The notes under the pieces are model-generated. The model saw only the letters and a program-made list of their open reading frames with translations, searched no databases and was not told the origin of the DNA. The position numbers were made by a program, and so were the translations under genes. This document shows positions 21,402-56,537 of a DNA stretch of 64,000 nucleotides, piece by piece. Numbering within the stretch: the stretch's first letter is position 1; every line of letters begins with the position of its first letter. This stretch comes from Paraburkholderia sp. IMGN_8 (GTDB lineage: Bacteria; Pseudomonadota; Gammaproteobacteria; Burkholderiales; Burkholderiaceae), in the NCBI RefSeq assembly GCF_038050405.1, contig NZ_CP150900.1, positions 4,092,001 through 4,156,000 of the forward strand, read 5' to 3'.

Positions 21402-21641
21402 ATGCTGCGCTGGCTGATAGCCATATTGTTTCTTGCCAACATGCTCGCATTCGTCGCGATGCGCGGCGTATTCGGCCCGACGCCTACAGCCGGCGGACGC
21501 GAGCCGAACCACCTGAACCGCCAGATTCATCCGGAGTGGTTGAAGATAAAGCCCGTGACAGCAGCCGAAGCCGCCGACCAGGCGATCGTGGGCGGCCCGG
21601 CGCCCACGGCGCCGATTGCGGCGTCGGCGTTGCCGCAGTAA
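21402..21641 (+). CDS. Conserved small membrane-anchored protein
   Basis: This 79-aa protein has one N-terminal hydrophobic helix (about residues 3-22, RWLIAILFLANMLAFVAMRG) and a Pro/Ala-rich polar tail (NHLNRQIHPEWLKIKPV). I do not recognise a named family. It follows coaX by 54 bp on the same strand, and GGGGAA lies shortly before its ATG, so it likely belongs to the birA-coaX transcript. It could be a remnant of a larger secreted protein: it stops soon after the helix. Confidence 0.6.
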   Translation: MLRWLIAILFLANMLAFVAMRGVFGPTPTAGGREPNHLNRQIHPEWLKIKPVTAAEAADQAIVGGPAPTAPIAASALPQ

Positions 21642-22088
21642 AGAACAGACACGGAGAAGCACTCACCAGGCGACGTGAGAAGCACCGCCCGCCGCGCGAG
21701 CGGCCGGAAGCAACGTCAGCGACGCGCAGCGAAAGAGCAGCCAAGAAAGACACGCCACATACGGTGTTGGAAGTACCGCTGCGGCGCGCGCAGCGCCGCC
21801 GGAAGAATGACTGCCTTGTCACCAGCGCGGAGTGCGCGAGAACACTGATTCCAGATGCACCACAACCGTGACTGCGCGAGGGACCCGCTTAGCATTAGCG
21901 GTGTAAAGCCGCTTTCTTTTGCCTACTTTTCTTTGCGGCAGGCGCCCCGAAGGAAGTCCACTTGGTGGACAAAGAAAAGTAGGTGCCGCCCCGCACAGGG
22001 GCAACACTAATAAACCAATAACAATTCAAGAAAAGGCCAACACCGCAGACAAACAACCAATGCGGCCGCCAAAGGCAAAAACCAAACC
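21642..22088. other. Convergent intergenic region occupied by a structured repeat
   Basis: No gene is supported here. Most of the gap between the birA-coaX operon and the convergent hldC gene is copy A of the structured repeat; the first 125 bp show nothing further. Confidence 0.7.
21768..22081 (+). repeat. Structured dispersed repeat, copy A
   Basis: About 314 bp share long stretches with 54187-54478 (inverted) and 54628-54912. The common order is a GGCGCGCGCAGCGCC hairpin, the ATGACTGCCTTGTCAC stretch, CTGATTCCAGATGC, then ACCCGCTTAGCATTAGCGGTGT and AGCCGCTTTC. A long hairpin follows (CCTACTTTTCTTTG at 21922-21935 against CAAAGAAAAGTAGG at 21969-21982), then a GCCCC/GGGGC hairpin, CTAATAAACCAATA and AAGGCCAACACCGC. 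Copy A has a larger loop in the main hairpin than the other copies. It codes for nothing. Confidence 0.8.
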
Positions 22089-22571
22089 TCACTCTTTTGC
22101 CCGAACCTTCTTCAAAAGCGCGGTAGTCGACCGCTCATGCTCGAAGGGAATAGCCAAAGCCTTCCCACCCCATCCCCGAACAATCGCCGACTCCGGCAAA
22201 GCATCCATATCGTAATCACCGCCCTTAACGAGCACATCCGGCCGCAGCGCCGAAATCAACTCAACGGGCGTCTGCTCACCAAAGCAAACCACATAATCGA
22301 CGCTCTCGAGGGCAGCGAGCAAGGCCATCCGATCAGCCTCATTATTGATAGGCCGATCATCTCCTTTCCCGAGCATGCGAACAGAAGCATCGCTGTTCAC
22401 GCCAACGATGAGACAAGCGCCGAGAGCCTTAGCATCAGCGAGATAAGTCACATGTCCGCGATGCAGAATATCGAACACACCGTTGGTAAAAACAACCGGC
22501 GCCGGCATAGAAGTACGAAGCCCAACAAGCGCATCGCGCGTAAAAATTTTGCGTTCGAAAGTAGCAGCCAT
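22089..22571 (-). CDS. hldC: D-glycero-beta-D-manno-heptose 1-phosphate adenylyltransferase
   Basis: This 160-aa nucleotidyltransferase has FTNGVFDILHRGHVTYL, holding the HxGH motif of the cytidylyltransferase superfamily, and ends with VKGGDYDMDALPE and a FEHERSTTALLKKVR signature. It matches the RfaE domain II (HldC) enzymes that make ADP-heptose for lipopolysaccharide inner core; the kinase domain is a separate protein in this group. The start at 22571 is chosen by family length. Expression is from its own promoter, since a terminator lies upstream at 22634-22665. Confidence 0.93.
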   Translation of the reverse strand: MAATFERKIFTRDALVGLRTSMPAPVVFTNGVFDILHRGHVTYLADAKALGACLIVGVNSDASVRMLGKGDDRPINNEADRMALLAALESVDYVVCFGEQTPVELISALRPDVLVKGGDYDMDALPESAIVRGWGGKALAIPFEHERSTTALLKKVRAKE

Positions 22572-22633
22572 GACGGAGTCAGAAAGAAAAAAAGAAGTGT
22601 CGCCACGATACACGCCGAACGGCATGAAGCAAA

Positions 22634-52180: not shown

Positions 52181-52801
52181 CACAATCCTTTCTGCGCCTT
52201 ACAGCGCAACATGAAGACCAGCGCGACGGACGTCCTGAAGTACATTACGGTGGACTGAATAGCGACGTCACATATGGCCCTCAAACTAAGGCCCTTTTTC
52301 ATGTTGGCTCTACGCGACAGCGCGTTCATGTGCCGAGTGGCGCAGCGATTCCTTCGTGGAGCCAATCACCGGCGGAGCGCCGGTTCCGCGGCCCCATCCC
52401 CCCCGCTTCCCACACGGCAATTATTTCGTCGCGGGTTCTCCTTTATTGCACAAAACAAAATTGTCGTGCCAGGATGAGGCCGTAGGTTTGTGACGCCACG
52501 TTGCGAGGGCCGGCCAATATCGGTTCCGCAACATGCGCAGGCGCCCTGCCGATAACCCGGTGTCCCGGTTCGGCGGCGGTTCCAGGCAGCATGATGTGGC
52601 GCTCATCATCGGCGCGTGGGGTCGCGTCGGCCGTTTGGGTTCATCCCGTGCGATCTCGATTAGCGTGCGTGCGCTTGGCGCACTCCGTACGCGAGTGTGT
52701 TTTTGTCTGTCGAAAATGTCGACGAAAGGTAAATGTCGGCAATGGCTTTCGACAGACAGACACCACGGTGTTCAGGGCAGATTTTTGATGCAGGTGCGTT
52801 A
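52181..52801. other. Intergenic region before the secreted hydrolase gene
   Basis: These 621 bp carry no gene I can support. A hairpin ACCGGCG-GAG-CGCCGGT lies at 52368-52384. A larger inverted repeat (GTCTGTCGAAA at 52705-52715, TTTCGACAGAC at 52747-52757) brackets 31 bases just ahead of the hydrolase gene. GGTGTTCAG occurs at 52768-52776 and again at 52804-52812, over the start codon. Confidence 0.5.
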
Positions 52802-54085
52802 ATGGTGTTCAGCAAGGTTCTGACGAAGTGTGCGGTGATCTGTGCGACGGCGACGTGCGCTGTCGCACTCGCGCATGCCGACCCGCTCGCCGACACCCAG
52901 GCGGGACCGCTGACCCGCGCTCACGTACCGCGTATTGCTCTGGACGACGACATCTATCTGCCGAGCGCCAGCCTCAACGAACAGATTGTGCGAGTACCGG
53001 TCAACGCTGCCGGCTCGATCACGCTCGAAACGACGATCTACAAACCGGACGGCGCAGGCCCGTTCCCGATGATCGTCTTCAACCACGGGAAGATTCCTGG
53101 CGACCCGCGCACGCAGGAACGCAGCGACCCGCGGCCGTTCGCGCGTGAATTCGTGCGGCGCGGCTACGTGGTGGTGGCGCCGAACCGCCAGGGCTTCGGC
53201 CATTCGGACGGCGCCTATCAGCAGGATGGCTGCGACGTCGAGCGCAACGGCATCAGCCAGGCCGGTGACGTGGCCGCGACGATCGACTACATGTCGAAGC
53301 AGCCGTACGTGGATGCGACACACATCGTGGTGGCCGGAACCTCGCACGGCGGGCTGGCGACGATGGCTTACGGCACCGAGGCTGCACCGGGCGTTCGGGC
53401 ATTGATCAATTTCTCCGGCGGTTTGCGGCAGGACGCGTGCACCGACTGGCAGGGCAACTTGACGCGCGCCTTCGGCGCATATGGTGAGAAGACCAGGGTG
53501 CCGTCGCTGTGGTTGTACGGCGAAAACGATTCGATCTGGACGCAGTCTTTGGTGGCCGGCATGTATGCCGCTTTTGCCGAGCATGGTGCGAGCGCCAGGA
53601 TGGTGGATTTCGGCAACTACAAGAATGACGCGCATCGGCTGGTTGGCGATCGCGATGGCGTGCAGGTTTGGTGGCCTGCTGTCGAGGCCTTCCTGGCGCG
53701 GGCGGGGATGCCTACCGGCGTGCAATATCGCGTGTCTGATCCTTCTTTGCCGAAGGCTAGCGGGTTTGCTGCTGTCGATGCGGTCGATGCCGTGCCGTTT
53801 GTCGATGAAGCTGGACGTAATGGGTATCGGAATTTCCTGCATCAGTATCCTAGCCGGGCTTTTGCGGTTTCGGATTCGGGGGCCTGGTCCTGGGCCGAGG
53901 GCGGCGATGATCCTATGACGGTGGCAATTGCTAATTGCCAGAAGCAGAGTTCGGCGCCTTGCAGGTTATATGCGGTGAATAACTCCGTTGTGTGGGGGGC
54001 TCAGTCTTCGCAGACGGCTAGTGGTGGTGATGGGTCTTCTTCTGGTGCTGCCGAGGGGCGTAGGGCTCTTGCTAGCCGGGAGTAG
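52802..54085 (+). CDS. Secreted alpha/beta hydrolase (dienelactone-hydrolase-like) with C-terminal extension
   Basis: This 427-aa protein has a signal peptide (about residues 1-27, ending AHA-DP). A serine-hydrolase domain follows: NHGKIPGDPR, the nucleophile elbow VAGTSHGGLATMAYG, the acid in LYGENDSIW and a histidine in KNDAHRLVGD. After about residue 300 a further domain begins (GYRNFLHQYPSRAFAVSDSGAWSWAEGG, with paired cysteines NCQKQSSAPCRLYAV). Codon use turns AT-richer in this last third. The substrate is unknown. An AGGTG ribosome site precedes the ATG at 52802. Confidence 0.82.
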   Translation: MVFSKVLTKCAVICATATCAVALAHADPLADTQAGPLTRAHVPRIALDDDIYLPSASLNEQIVRVPVNAAGSITLETTIYKPDGAGPFPMIVFNHGKIPGDPRTQERSDPRPFAREFVRRGYVVVAPNRQGFGHSDGAYQQDGCDVERNGISQAGDVAATIDYMSKQPYVDATHIVVAGTSHGGLATMAYGTEAAPGVRALINFSGGLRQDACTDWQGNLTRAFGAYGEKTRVPSLWLYGENDSIWTQSLVAGMYAAFAEHGASARMVDFGNYKNDAHRLVGDRDGVQVWWPAVEAFLARAGMPTGVQYRVSDPSLPKASGFAAVDAVDAVPFVDEAGRNGYRNFLHQYPSRAFAVSDSGAWSWAEGGDDPMTVAIANCQKQSSAPCRLYAVNNSVVWGAQSSQTASGGDGSSSGAAEGRRALASRE

Positions 54086-54099
54086 GGGTTTTTTAGTGC

Positions 54100-54180
54100 C
54101 TGCTCGGCGGTATTTGTCTGTGTGCCTGCGGGGTTGGCCTTTCCTTGATTTCTTAGTGGTCTATTAGCTTCGCCCCTGTG
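54100..54180 (-). repeat. Tail fragment of the structured repeat
   Basis: On the minus strand this reads CACAGGGGCGAAGCTAATAG, then ACCACTAAGAAATCAAGGAA and AGGCCAACCCCGCAGGC, matching the 3' part of the repeat that ends the neighbouring full copy. It lies in tandem with that copy. Confidence 0.7.
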
Positions 54181-54186
54181 CTGTTT

Positions 54187-54478
54187 GCCTGCTCGGCGCT
54201 TTGGGTTGTACGCCTGCGGCGTTGGCCTTTCCTTGATTTCTTATTGGTTTATTAGCGTCGCCCCTGTGCGGGGCAGGCACTTACTTTCTTTGCCGCCGCA
54301 AAGAAAGTAAGCAAAGAAAGCGGCTCACACCGCTAATGCTAAGCGGGTTCCTCGCGCAGTCACGGTAGTGGAGCATCTGGAATCTGCGCTCTCGCACACT
54401 CCGCCCTGGTGACAAAGCAGTCATTCTTCCGGCGGCGCTGCGCGCGCCGACGCGGTACTTCTCAAAACCGCCAGGCAC
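54187..54478 (-). repeat. Structured dispersed repeat, copy B (inverted)
   Basis: On the minus strand this has the same order as copies A and C. The main hairpin is CTTACTTTCTTTGC against GCAAAGAAAGTAAG with a GGCG loop, at about 54280-54312. The CCGTGACTGCGCGAGG stretch is shared with copy A but replaced in copy C. Confidence 0.8.
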
Positions 54479-54627
54479 CGCTGGCGTCTTGTTGCCGCAT
54501 CTTCCCCGCATGCAACTCCCCTGCGCCGAGGCGCAGCCGACGATCCCCACCCCACCCAAAAAACGCTACTGCTTTCCGCGCACCCCGTCCCCGCGTGTGG
54601 TGCTGTGGCCCAAACCCGACTAATGGT

Positions 54628-54912
54628 TTTCGGAAGCACACTTCGGCGCGCGCAGCGCCGCCGGAAGTATGACTGCCTTGTCACTAGGGCGGAGTGTGCG
54701 AGAGCACTGATTCCAGATGCTCCACTGCCTCCTCCAAGCCAGGGGACCCGCTTAAGAATTAGCGGTGTGAAGCCGCTTTCTTTGCTTACTTTCTTTGCGG
54801 CGGCAAAGAAAGTAAGTGCCTGCCCCGCACAGGGGCGACGCTAATAAACCAATATCAAATCAAGGAAAGGCCACCGCCGTAAGCGAACAACCAAAGCGCC
54901 GCGCAGGCAAAA
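54628..54912 (+). repeat. Structured dispersed repeat, copy C
   Basis: Same order as copy A. The main hairpin is CTTACTTTCTTTGC against GCAAAGAAAGTAAG with a GGCG loop at about 54785-54816. The GCCCC-GCACA-GGGGC hairpin is at about 54822-54836, and the tail CTAATAAACCAATA and AAGGAAAGGCCACCGCC follow. It forms a large inverted repeat with copy B around a 150-bp centre. Confidence 0.8.
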
Positions 54913-55004
54913 ACCCCCAATCCCCGCCTACAACAACCCATTACTTTGCCGTCGCTAACTGCACCGATCAGCAATCTTCACAAACAAACTGAAACCAGCT
55001 GCAT

Positions 55005-55047
55005 CGAACAGCCCCGAACCCCAAGCGCCGCAGGCAAAACCCCCATC
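55005..55047 (+). repeat. Second tail fragment of the structured repeat
   Basis: CGAACAGCCCCGAACCCC, then AAGCGCCGCAGGCAAAAC and CCCCATCC, resemble the end of copy C (CGAACAACCAAAGCGCCGCG, CAGGCAAAAACCCCCAATCC). Confidence 0.5.
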
Positions 55048-55170
55048 CAACCCCTAATGCAGAACAATAAATAAAGCGCTAATCTCGACCCCGCGAAACC
55101 GCCAGGGCCGCGCCCAGCGCAAACAAACCTGCAAAGAAAAGCCAGCCCGCAGCGGCAAAAAAGCACCCTC

Positions 55171-55184
55171 GGAGTACCCCTTTG
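55171..55184 (+). promoter_or_regulatory. Ribosome-binding site and TTG start of bioA
   Basis: GGAG at 55171-55174 stands seven bases before a TTG at 55182, the only reasonable start. The next in-frame ATG is 26 codons into the conserved protein. Confidence 0.6.
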
Positions 55185-56537
55185 GAAAAAAAGTCAGCAG
55201 CAACACCTGAAGACTGGATCACCCGCAGCCTGCGTGCCGTCTGGCACCCCTGCACCCAGATGAAGCACCACGAGCGCCTGCCGCTGATCCCGGTAGCGCG
55301 CGGTCAAGGCGCGTGGCTCTACGACCGTGCCAACCGTCGTTATCTGGACGCGATCAGTTCCTGGTGGGTCAACCTGTTCGGTCACGCCAACCCGCGCATC
55401 AATGCGGCATTGAAAGACCAGCTCGACACGCTCGAGCACGCGATGCTCGCCGGCTGCACGCACGAGCCCGCGATCGAACTCGCCGAACGCCTCGGTGCGC
55501 TCACCCACAACACGCTCGGCCACGCGTTCTTCGCGTCCGACGGCGCATCCGCCGTCGAAATCGCGCTGAAGATGAGCTTCCACTCGTGGCGCAATCGCGG
55601 CTTCGCCGACAAGCAGGAATTCGTCTGCATCGCCAACAGCTATCACGGCGAAACCATCGGCGCGCTCGGCGTCACCGATGTCGCGCTCTTCAAAGACGCC
55701 TACGATCCGCTGATCCGCAACGCGCATGTCGTTGCATCGCCCGATGCGCGCCTCGCGCAACCAGGCGAAACCGCAGCCGATGTCGCGCGCCGTGCGCTCG
55801 ATCACGTTCGCGCGCTGTTCGAAGCCCGCGCCACCAAAATCTCCGCGCTGATCGTCGAGCCGCTCGTGCAGTGCGCCGCCGGCATGGCGATGCACGACAC
55901 GTCGTATATCGCCGGATTGCGCGCGCTGTGCGACCAGTACGGCGTGCATCTGATCGCCGATGAAATCGCTGTCGGTTGCGGACGTACCGGCACTTTCTTC
56001 GCTTGCGAACAGGCCGGTATCTGGCCGGATTTCCTGTGTCTTTCGAAGGGCATCAGCGGCGGCTATCTGCCGTTGTCGATCGTGTTGTCGCGCGATGAAA
56101 TCTTCAACGCGTTCTATCACGACGATACCGCGCGCGGCTTCCTGCACTCACACTCGTACACCGGCAATCCGCTCGCGTGCCGTGCGGCGCTCGCCACGCT
56201 CGATCTGTTCGCGAGCGACAACGTACTCGCCGTCAACGCGCAGAAGTCCGCGAAGCTGAAGGCCGCGCTCGCGCCGCTCTCAGAACATAAGCACGTGCGC
56301 AATCTGCGCCAGTGCGGCACGATCTTCGCGTTCGATGCAGTGATCGACGACCCTCAGCATGCCAAAACATTCTCGCGCCGTTTTTTCGAAAACGCGTTGC
56401 GGCGCGAACTGCTGCTGCGCCCGATTTCGACCACGGTGTATCTGATGCCCCCCTACATCCTCGACGACGAAGAACTCGCGCTGCTCGCCTCGCGCACCCG
56501 CGAAACCTTCGAAGCGACGCTCGCGGAGACCCGCTAA
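55182..56537 (+). CDS. bioA: Adenosylmethionine-8-amino-7-oxononanoate aminotransferase
   Basis: This 451-aa PLP enzyme makes diaminopelargonate from KAPA, using AdoMet as amino donor. [17 protein letters not shown] is the N-terminal family landmark, [19 protein letters not shown] is typical of BioA, and [20 protein letters not shown] is the PLP aspartate region. The catalytic lysine is in [15 protein letters not shown]. It starts with TTG at 55182. Its TAA overlaps the bioF ATG by one base. First gene of bioAFDB. Confidence 0.95.

Follow-up and report, generated by a model that had tools for sequence, protein, structure and literature searches.

What kind of sequence is a repeat of about 290 bp that occurs three times within 64 kb of a Paraburkholderia genome, forms stem-loops, and keeps no open frame? 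The window, by which we mean the whole 64,000-nt stretch analyzed, covers C1:4092001-4156000 of the 9.11-Mb, two-contig genome of Paraburkholderia sp. IMGN_8 (the own genome, G000), and a first-pass annotation made from its letters had offered a non-coding mobile element, a structured RNA, and a chromosome-organizing site as possible answers. The three copies are present at the positions that it gave (Table 1) and align pairwise with E-values of 4e-61 to 4e-100, the identity over the matched part being 89% between copies B and C and 80% between copies A and B. Its remark that no open frame is kept between copies was borne out in 74 copies from the own genome: not one of six frames, counted from the start of the repeat, is open in all 74, the shortest of the longest stop-free runs being 21-29 codons per frame and the medians 30-66, and a coding function was rejected.

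Table 1. Coordinates of repeat copies, motifs, and family matches within the window
Feature	Position	Strand	Detail
Degenerate inner stub before copy A	21648-21767	+	short spacer-like stretches
Copy A	21762-22081 (aligned part 21762-22058)	+	solo arm, stem variant II (CTACTTTTCTTTGC), extra hairpin in stem loop
Three-hairpin motif of copy A	21896-22015	+	covariance model R1, 89.4 bits, model positions 1-90
RF02421 Bp1_684 match in copy A	21973-22078	+	41.0 bits, cutoff 44
Second copy of outermost unit beyond arm B	54097-54181	-	87% identity over 85 bp
Copy B	54184-54470 (inner end 54449 or 54470 by search)	-	left arm of B/C element
RF02421 match in arm B	54193-54290	-	37.5 bits, cutoff 44
Three-hairpin motif of arm B	54247-54335	-	R1, 103.4 bits, E 1.2e-26
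Spacer between arms B and C	54451-54627		directional core ~54524-54595
Copy C	54625-54912	+	right arm of B/C element
Three-hairpin motif of arm C	54760-54849	+	R1, 105.7 bits, E 2.9e-27
P1 (AGCGG)	54761-54765	+	alternative partner of P2, forming hairpin 1
P2 (GCCGC)	54772-54776	+	complementary to P1 and to loop segment P3
Hairpin 2, main stem	54784-54819	+	G-U pairs at base
P3 (GCGGC)	54797-54801	+	pairs with P2 from the loop side in a proposed pseudoknot; overlap with the closing pairs of hairpin 2
RF02421 match in arm C	54806-54902	+	35.8 bits, cutoff 44
Hairpin 3 (GCCCC-GCACA-GGGGC)	54822-54836	+	folding prediction

The repeat is one arm of a divergent pair

The 290-bp repeat exists, but the unit that the first-pass annotation took it for is larger: the repeat is one arm of a non-coding unit of ~0.7-1.0 kb, in which an alpha arm and a beta arm stand in divergent orientation on either side of a core, and copies B and C are the two arms of a single such element. 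Divergent pairs are found at 30 of 33 distinct loci of the own genome, the three unpaired ones being L004, L017, and L020; these 33 loci comprise the best matches and the first places of the stem pattern, a subset of the copies. The paired arms lie 0.18-0.43 kb apart around a directional core of ~140 bp, through which the spacers of different elements match each other (E 6e-8 to 4e-4 for the core piece of the B/C spacer against the cores of other elements). The two core directions are roughly balanced in the own genome (17 versus 15 places, perhaps with some overlap). Two variants of the main stem, I and II, can occur together in one pair, as at C1:2125115 with 2125617, and the outermost unit of the arm, judged by eye, is ~57 bp long, ends in GGCAAAA or longer, and is present in one or more copies. 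In the spacer of L007 (G000:C2:1908 kb) there are several tandem copies of a ~39-bp unit (GTAACGCCGAACACCGAAACTGG...), and similar stretches occur in other spacers, for example that of L009.

Pairing extends to relatives. Among at least 120 stretches, 80 named loci are listed, all from Paraburkholderia, Caballeronia, and "Burkholderia" records retrieved with a genus-typical search pattern, and in these 93 of 132 arms have a divergent mate. Twenty-five of the 39 mate-less arms are near the end of their locus, and among the neighbors none is convergent and two are tandem.

The count of further copies, which the first-pass annotation had suggested as a check, gave 131 places with the strict main stem (three mismatches or fewer) and 251 outer-hairpin blocks in the 9.1-Mb own genome, numbers well in excess of chance, with 0 for the reversed-pattern control in both cases. 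Stem variant II adds 37 places, exact or with one mismatch, copy A not being among them because of its longer loop. A whole-arm query matched in 31 of 59 genomes, made up of 29 of the 35 labeled as own or same genus and 2 of the 24 others. Plasmid records with matches numbered 27 (nine Paraburkholderia, nine Caballeronia, seven Burkholderia, one Chitinibacter, and one Variovorax), a longer query matched in 15 plasmid records, and phage records gave no match at E 1e-5. Five of the plasmid regions were inspected; they are without gene annotation and give no information on placement between genes.

Truncation has left copy A as a solo arm preceded by a degenerate inner stub. Sequence matching the spacers of complete elements occurs at 21676-21711 and again at 21762-21790, with E ~1e-4 to 3e-4, and no partner arm was found near the copy. 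Stub and copy together make up ~445 bp that are absent from the relative G061, in which only ~10 bp remain between the aligned blocks. Copy A is probably what is left of a decayed element that has lost one arm. A short inserted hairpin (GTCCAC-TTG-GTGGAC) occupies the loop of its main stem at 21940-21970, the stem itself remaining intact.

Predicted fold and spread across Pseudomonadota

Three hairpins are predicted in each arm, within a motif of ~90 nt. The stem-loops noted in the first-pass annotation are real in that the stem segment folds better than its shuffles, with z-scores of -4.35 on the plus and -4.13 on the minus strand of copy C and -2.75 and -3.61 in copy A; both strands beat the shuffles, so that energies alone do not pick the strand. 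The inner 120 bp of arm C fold no better than shuffles (z -0.57 and -1.05). When 23 arms of the genus were aligned, the three-hairpin structure paired in 97.0% of cells, as against 44-60% when it was slid along the alignment. Taken alone, this genus alignment has changes on both sides at 2 pairs, a number reached by 315 of 500 shuffles, and fewer further pair types than shuffles (4 versus 5.9); its cells with both-side changes number 12 versus 4.3, and these and the covariation score exceed all shuffles.

A broader alignment, A3, is more informative and comprises 41 sequences from many families; some of its rows are two arms of one element, and the distant rows were found with R1, a covariance model built from the genus alone. 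Without a given structure, RNAalifold predicted 14 pairs on A3, 10 of which change on both sides, one pair being GC in 21 rows and CG in 17. The complementarity of P2, which directly precedes the main stem, with the segment P3 in the loop of that stem is likewise kept across relatives while both sides change: the pair reads GCCGC/GCGGC in the own genome, GCGGC/GCCGC in G022, TCGTC/GACGA in L341, and, by eye, CGTGC/GCACG in L338 and L340. In 37 distinct windows the matched P2/P3 run averaged 4.32, compared with 3.66 (sd 0.12) in permutations that take no account of relatedness among the windows, and none of 2000 permutations was as high. Nine of the 48 rows of alignment A2 were excluded from this comparison as opposite-strand or partial matches. 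In some of its rows the stem was set too short and the P2 window is off (e.g., L326, L328, and L340), and a few have short runs (the plus-strand row of L340, and L076). As an alternative, P2 can pair with the upstream P1, and the hairpin so formed has a T-rich tract behind it on the outward strand. Wobble pairs favor the outward strand, in 30 versus 6 cells of A3 and, at main-stem pairs 5-12, in 21 versus 5, cells that are not independent events; this bias suggests that it is the outward strand that folds, either as RNA or as single-stranded DNA.

Covariance models, which had been suggested for this repeat, found the motif in a part of the genomes of both the order and the phylum. Among 300 genomes of the order, 39 match R1 (25 of 134 genera), and among 299 of the phylum, 52 match R2, a model built from A3 (29 of 154 genera); 26 of these 52 genomes belong to one family, f76, outside the class. 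A divergent partner was found at 12 of 28 re-searched loci from other genera of the order (weakest E 0.04, model calibration being short and E-values accordingly rough). In the phylum, partners were divergent at 10 of 28 loci and convergent at 1, pairing being rarer outside the order, and none was found at the four f76 loci L369 and L373-L375. For family membership we propose a full-length match to R1 or R2 together with a divergent mate; arms B and C have both, whereas copy A matches R1 but has no divergent mate. The paired architecture, a structure with compensatory changes, and a spread over many families are established by computation.

The first-pass annotation had recognized no described family in the repeat, which is correct only in part. 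The window has no match to Rfam at the gathering threshold, but the outer 100 bp of the arm match RF02421 (Bp1_684, the Burkholderia sRNA Bp1_Cand684_SIPHT): all three window copies score below its 44-bit gathering cutoff and L321, a relative of the same family, scores above it, at 59.2 bits. RF02421 covers hairpin 3 and the outer tail in the same direction as the arm. It is modeled as a single sRNA of 113 positions, beginning within the 3' strand of the main stem, and it lacks the remainder of this stem as well as P2, the inner part, and the paired arrangement. According to PMC3521395, its founding member was among the candidates validated by RT-PCR in a Burkholderia, matches to it occurred in other phyla, and a trans-acting role was guessed since the flanking genes had nothing in common; a dispersed repeat would explain this last point well. 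Of 30 loci from other orders that were centered on a second Rfam family, RF01731 (TwoAYGGAY), some of them sharing a genome, 16 have it immediately inside the motif, both on one strand (E up to 0.1 was allowed, the weakest of the 16 being 0.016), and the remaining 14 gave no motif on that side. In the own genome RF01731 has no match at E 1e-4. Matches to RF01731 in G578, G566, G673, G640, and G619 include divergent pairs with gaps of ~190-330 bp. Rfam lists TwoAYGGAY as a separate RNA, a single-RNA view without divergent pairs; PMC2864571 describes it as "probably" an RNA and probably not cis-regulatory, and PMC4333381 proposes that it binds CsrA. Two further hits, to MIR898 and MIR8622 in L354 and L364, are far below cutoff and were taken as chance.

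In the open-access literature searched, including PMC4035088, PMC11701678, and PMC2267715, we found no description of the paired element. The element is real and widespread, and as a unit it is not described in that literature.

Placement, mobility, and likeness among copies

The convergent gap reported for the repeat is correct for copy A, which lies between a 79-aa ORF at 21402-21641 (+) and an ORF at 22089-22625 (-), but not for the B/C element, which lies between co-directional ORFs at 52733-54085 (+) and 55182-56537 (+), one hydrolase-like and the other aminotransferase-like. Among 32 pairs for which a gene caller trained on this genome called both neighbors, 15 fall in convergent gaps; the background figure is 52 of 276 gaps, a count that includes a few element gaps of the same stretch. 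Of the gene ends facing a pair, 46 of 66 are 3' ends, versus 283 of 552 in the background. Seventeen of these 46 are within 13 nt of the pair; distances of 0-2 nt to 5' ends are probably artifacts of open-ended ORFs. In the listed named relatives, in which 11 of 46 pairs have too little flank or no gene call, 10 of 35 pairs are in convergent gaps (29 of 150 in the background) and 3' ends make up 42 of the 70 facing ends; for distant pairs, with a crude gene caller, the corresponding figures are 4 of 20 and 17 of 40. A preference for convergent gaps is thus well supported in the own genome and unproven beyond it. For the chromosome-organizing site offered by the first-pass annotation this leaves no direct support, the enrichment being clear only in the own genome and weak or absent elsewhere.

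Comparison with G061 over ~200 kb of synteny, in blocks 83-92% identical, shows insertion differences between species. The own genome has five element loci there, the last, 4196692, just past the final aligned block; the B/C element and 4186581 are shared (the latter split in G061), and two of the five, copy A and 4175773, are empty in G061. At the second of these, short outer-end-like sequences remain around other DNA in G061, and a deletion instead of an empty site is possible. At neither of these sites did the comparison with this relative, of 83-92% block identity, reveal a target-site duplication. The gene to the right of the B/C element is present in all 58 genus genomes searched; among 30 loci with this gap, the own one included, one or more arms lie close to the gene in 17 and are missing from the other 13, one of which is represented by no more than ~200 bp on the upstream side. 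Occupation of the site in many species argues for long retention or re-occupation and not only for mobility. The orientation of the core as proof of vertical descent was tried and set aside: at B/C it is the same in the own genome and six other genomes (one by a short match), whereas at 4186581 it is opposite in the own genome and G061. Recombination between the inverted arms could have flipped it.

What lies between arms also varies. Four pairs in G022 flank 1.1-2.7 kb of other sequence and a fifth has an ordinary spacer. In one of the four, at L057:1265-3991, an LPMO_10 gene between the two arms looks interrupted by a Mutator-type transposase gene, and at L053:2263-3497 (G000:C1:1276-1278 kb) an insertion sequence with HTH_38 and rve domains lies inside one element arm.

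Arms mostly resemble others of their own genome more than their counterparts elsewhere. Mean identity is 91.1% among the 74 arms of the own genome and 79.8% (sd 2.7) between arms of the own genome and G061, where the same-locus comparisons give 85.4% for B, 80.9% for C, and 76.0% for the right arm of 4186581, one of three being clearly above the mean. Leaving G061 out, same-locus arms (five genomes for B and seven for C) are within 2.4 points of the mean cross pair, above or below it. In a tree built from 49 selected arms (18 of the own genome's 74, the rest from five other genomes) the arms group by genome, with 9 label changes (the minimum being 5) versus 27.9 in shuffles; only 10 of its 46 inner branches have good support. 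The two arms of one element are about as alike as any two arms of the genome, 0.925 versus 0.911 in the own genome and 0.866 versus 0.889 in G061. This genome-wise likeness reflects either mutual conversion of copies or re-occupation of sites.

Alpha and beta arms form separate classes in G061, with identities of 0.918 and 0.935 within and 0.858 between classes (3 + 3 arms), and in G019, with 0.921 and 0.921 within and 0.876 between (4 + 4 arms); they are not distinguishable in the own genome (0.914, 0.907, and 0.911; 31 + 31 arms). One G019 arm, L063_1506m, falls outside the tree class predicted by its core orientation. Computation establishes that insertions differ between species, that arms cluster by genome, and that alpha and beta arms can be told apart in two genomes.

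Nature of the element and rival explanations

In kind, the element is an interspersed mosaic repeat whose end structure and breadth are unusual. MITEs are non-coding, have inverted ends, and are marked by many copies and empty sites, and the element is like them in each of these, its arms, as inverted copies, forming the terminal inverted repeats by which MITEs are recognized. It is unlike a MITE in that its ends are folded motifs and its interior varies and can hold genes. No target-site duplication was seen at the two sites empty in G061, and no parent transposon was found at the five between-arm loci looked at. Its modular make-up recalls the mosaic intergenic repeats NIME and BOX, of which NIMEs are recombination targets; we know of no divergent pairing and no phylum-wide common structure in either.

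No transposase linked to the element was found. The own genome yielded a single gene matching PF01797 (Y1-type), at a distance from any arm; its protein reads MPGAVQLLV where a histidine pair is expected, the usual HUH histidines not being seen. PF01797 has matches in 96 of 97 genus genomes, mostly one weak match each. The region of G000:C1:365736 holds a weakly matching Y1_Tnp gene (L070:1459-2166) with open frames of 237-417 aa, which occurs about once per genome. The Y1_Tnp gene of the own genome looks like a domesticated transposase, and a RAYT as mobilizer was rejected for this genome, the lone PF01797 gene having no arm in its locus.

Against this background we lean toward reading the 290-bp repeat as an arm of a non-autonomous, non-coding mobile element of ~0.7-1.0 kb that evolves in concert and resides between genes. 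Copy number, empty sites, other sequence between the arms, and covariation across families fit the first-pass proposal of a non-coding mobile element or structured RNA. The arms could instead be a functional pair of outward-transcribed RNAs, sRNAs or 3' regulatory RNAs and perhaps a protein sponge, with the repeat spreading because its RNA is of use. We consider this unlikely: the wobble bias toward the outward strand, the same direction and RT-PCR validation of the RF02421 founding member (PMC3521395), and the inner RF01731 module of other orders with its proposed CsrA binding (PMC4333381) all suit it, while sigma-70-like promoters, the one type searched, number 0 across the B/C element against 0.2 expected, the own genome has the outer motif and no detected RF01731, and ~130 copies of one stem per genome would be unusual for a regulatory RNA gene. 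A bidirectional 3'-end element, in which the arms act like REP/BIME as terminators or RNA-stabilizing ends of the flanking genes, strikes us as unlikely. It would account for the own-genome bias toward 3' ends and convergent gaps, for 7 terminator-like sites in 53900-55250 versus 2.1 expected, for the P1-P2 hairpin with its T-rich tract, and for the canonical terminator seen by eye at that place in the element-less relatives L088, L089, and L096; but the enrichment weakens in the listed named relatives and is absent in distant pairs, avoidance of promoters would yield an equal bias, and the core and the alpha/beta ends are left unexplained.

An old immobile intergenic repeat, its copies kept similar by gene conversion alone, would be at home with a gap occupied in many species, a B/C core orientation common to seven genomes, and arms that cluster by genome; the two empty loci of the stretch syntenic with G061, the other sequence between arms in G022, the patchy presence in 25 of the order's 134 genera, and the opposite core at 4186581 make it improbable. 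Least of all do we favor a REP/REPIN-type element moved by a RAYT transposase, which we hold to be very improbable. The likeness to REP, BIME, and REPIN with RAYT, as treated in PMC2817692, lies in inverted pairs of a palindromic hairpin unit and a high copy number, and the GTAG that precedes hairpin 3 in variant II, the variant of copy A, resembles the GTAG heads given there. Yet in place of a GTRG tetranucleotide before the palindrome variant I has GTAA, and distant sequences are variable at this position and do not keep GTAG; a REP is much smaller than the unit, which measures ~90 nt and has three hairpins as well as P2/P3 complementarity, most paired units are 0.1-0.6 kb apart, no linked RAYT was found for the arms, and the arm model has no match in 31 loci with PF01797 genes.

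Returning to the mobile element, we regard it as probably a mobile parasite with a putative helper enzyme. A trans-acting enzyme would recognize the folded outward strand, as single-stranded DNA or RNA, at both ends; copies would multiply and overwrite each other by transposition and gene conversion; and they may last mainly behind genes since they cause little harm in that position. More tentatively, the arms may be the ends of an undescribed class of mobile elements found across Pseudomonadota, in which a folded, pseudoknotted strand is read by the putative helper and of which Bp1_684 and TwoAYGGAY are pieces. If this is true, the repeat, which numbers ~250 arm blocks in a single genome, is a member of a family present in dozens of genera, and two separately annotated Rfam families are parts of one composite element, which would change how these RNAs are annotated and tested. 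The testable question would then be which enzyme recognizes the folded ends and whether DNA or RNA is the folding strand, and the concerted evolution of the scattered copies would be a natural way to measure gene conversion within a bacterial genome.
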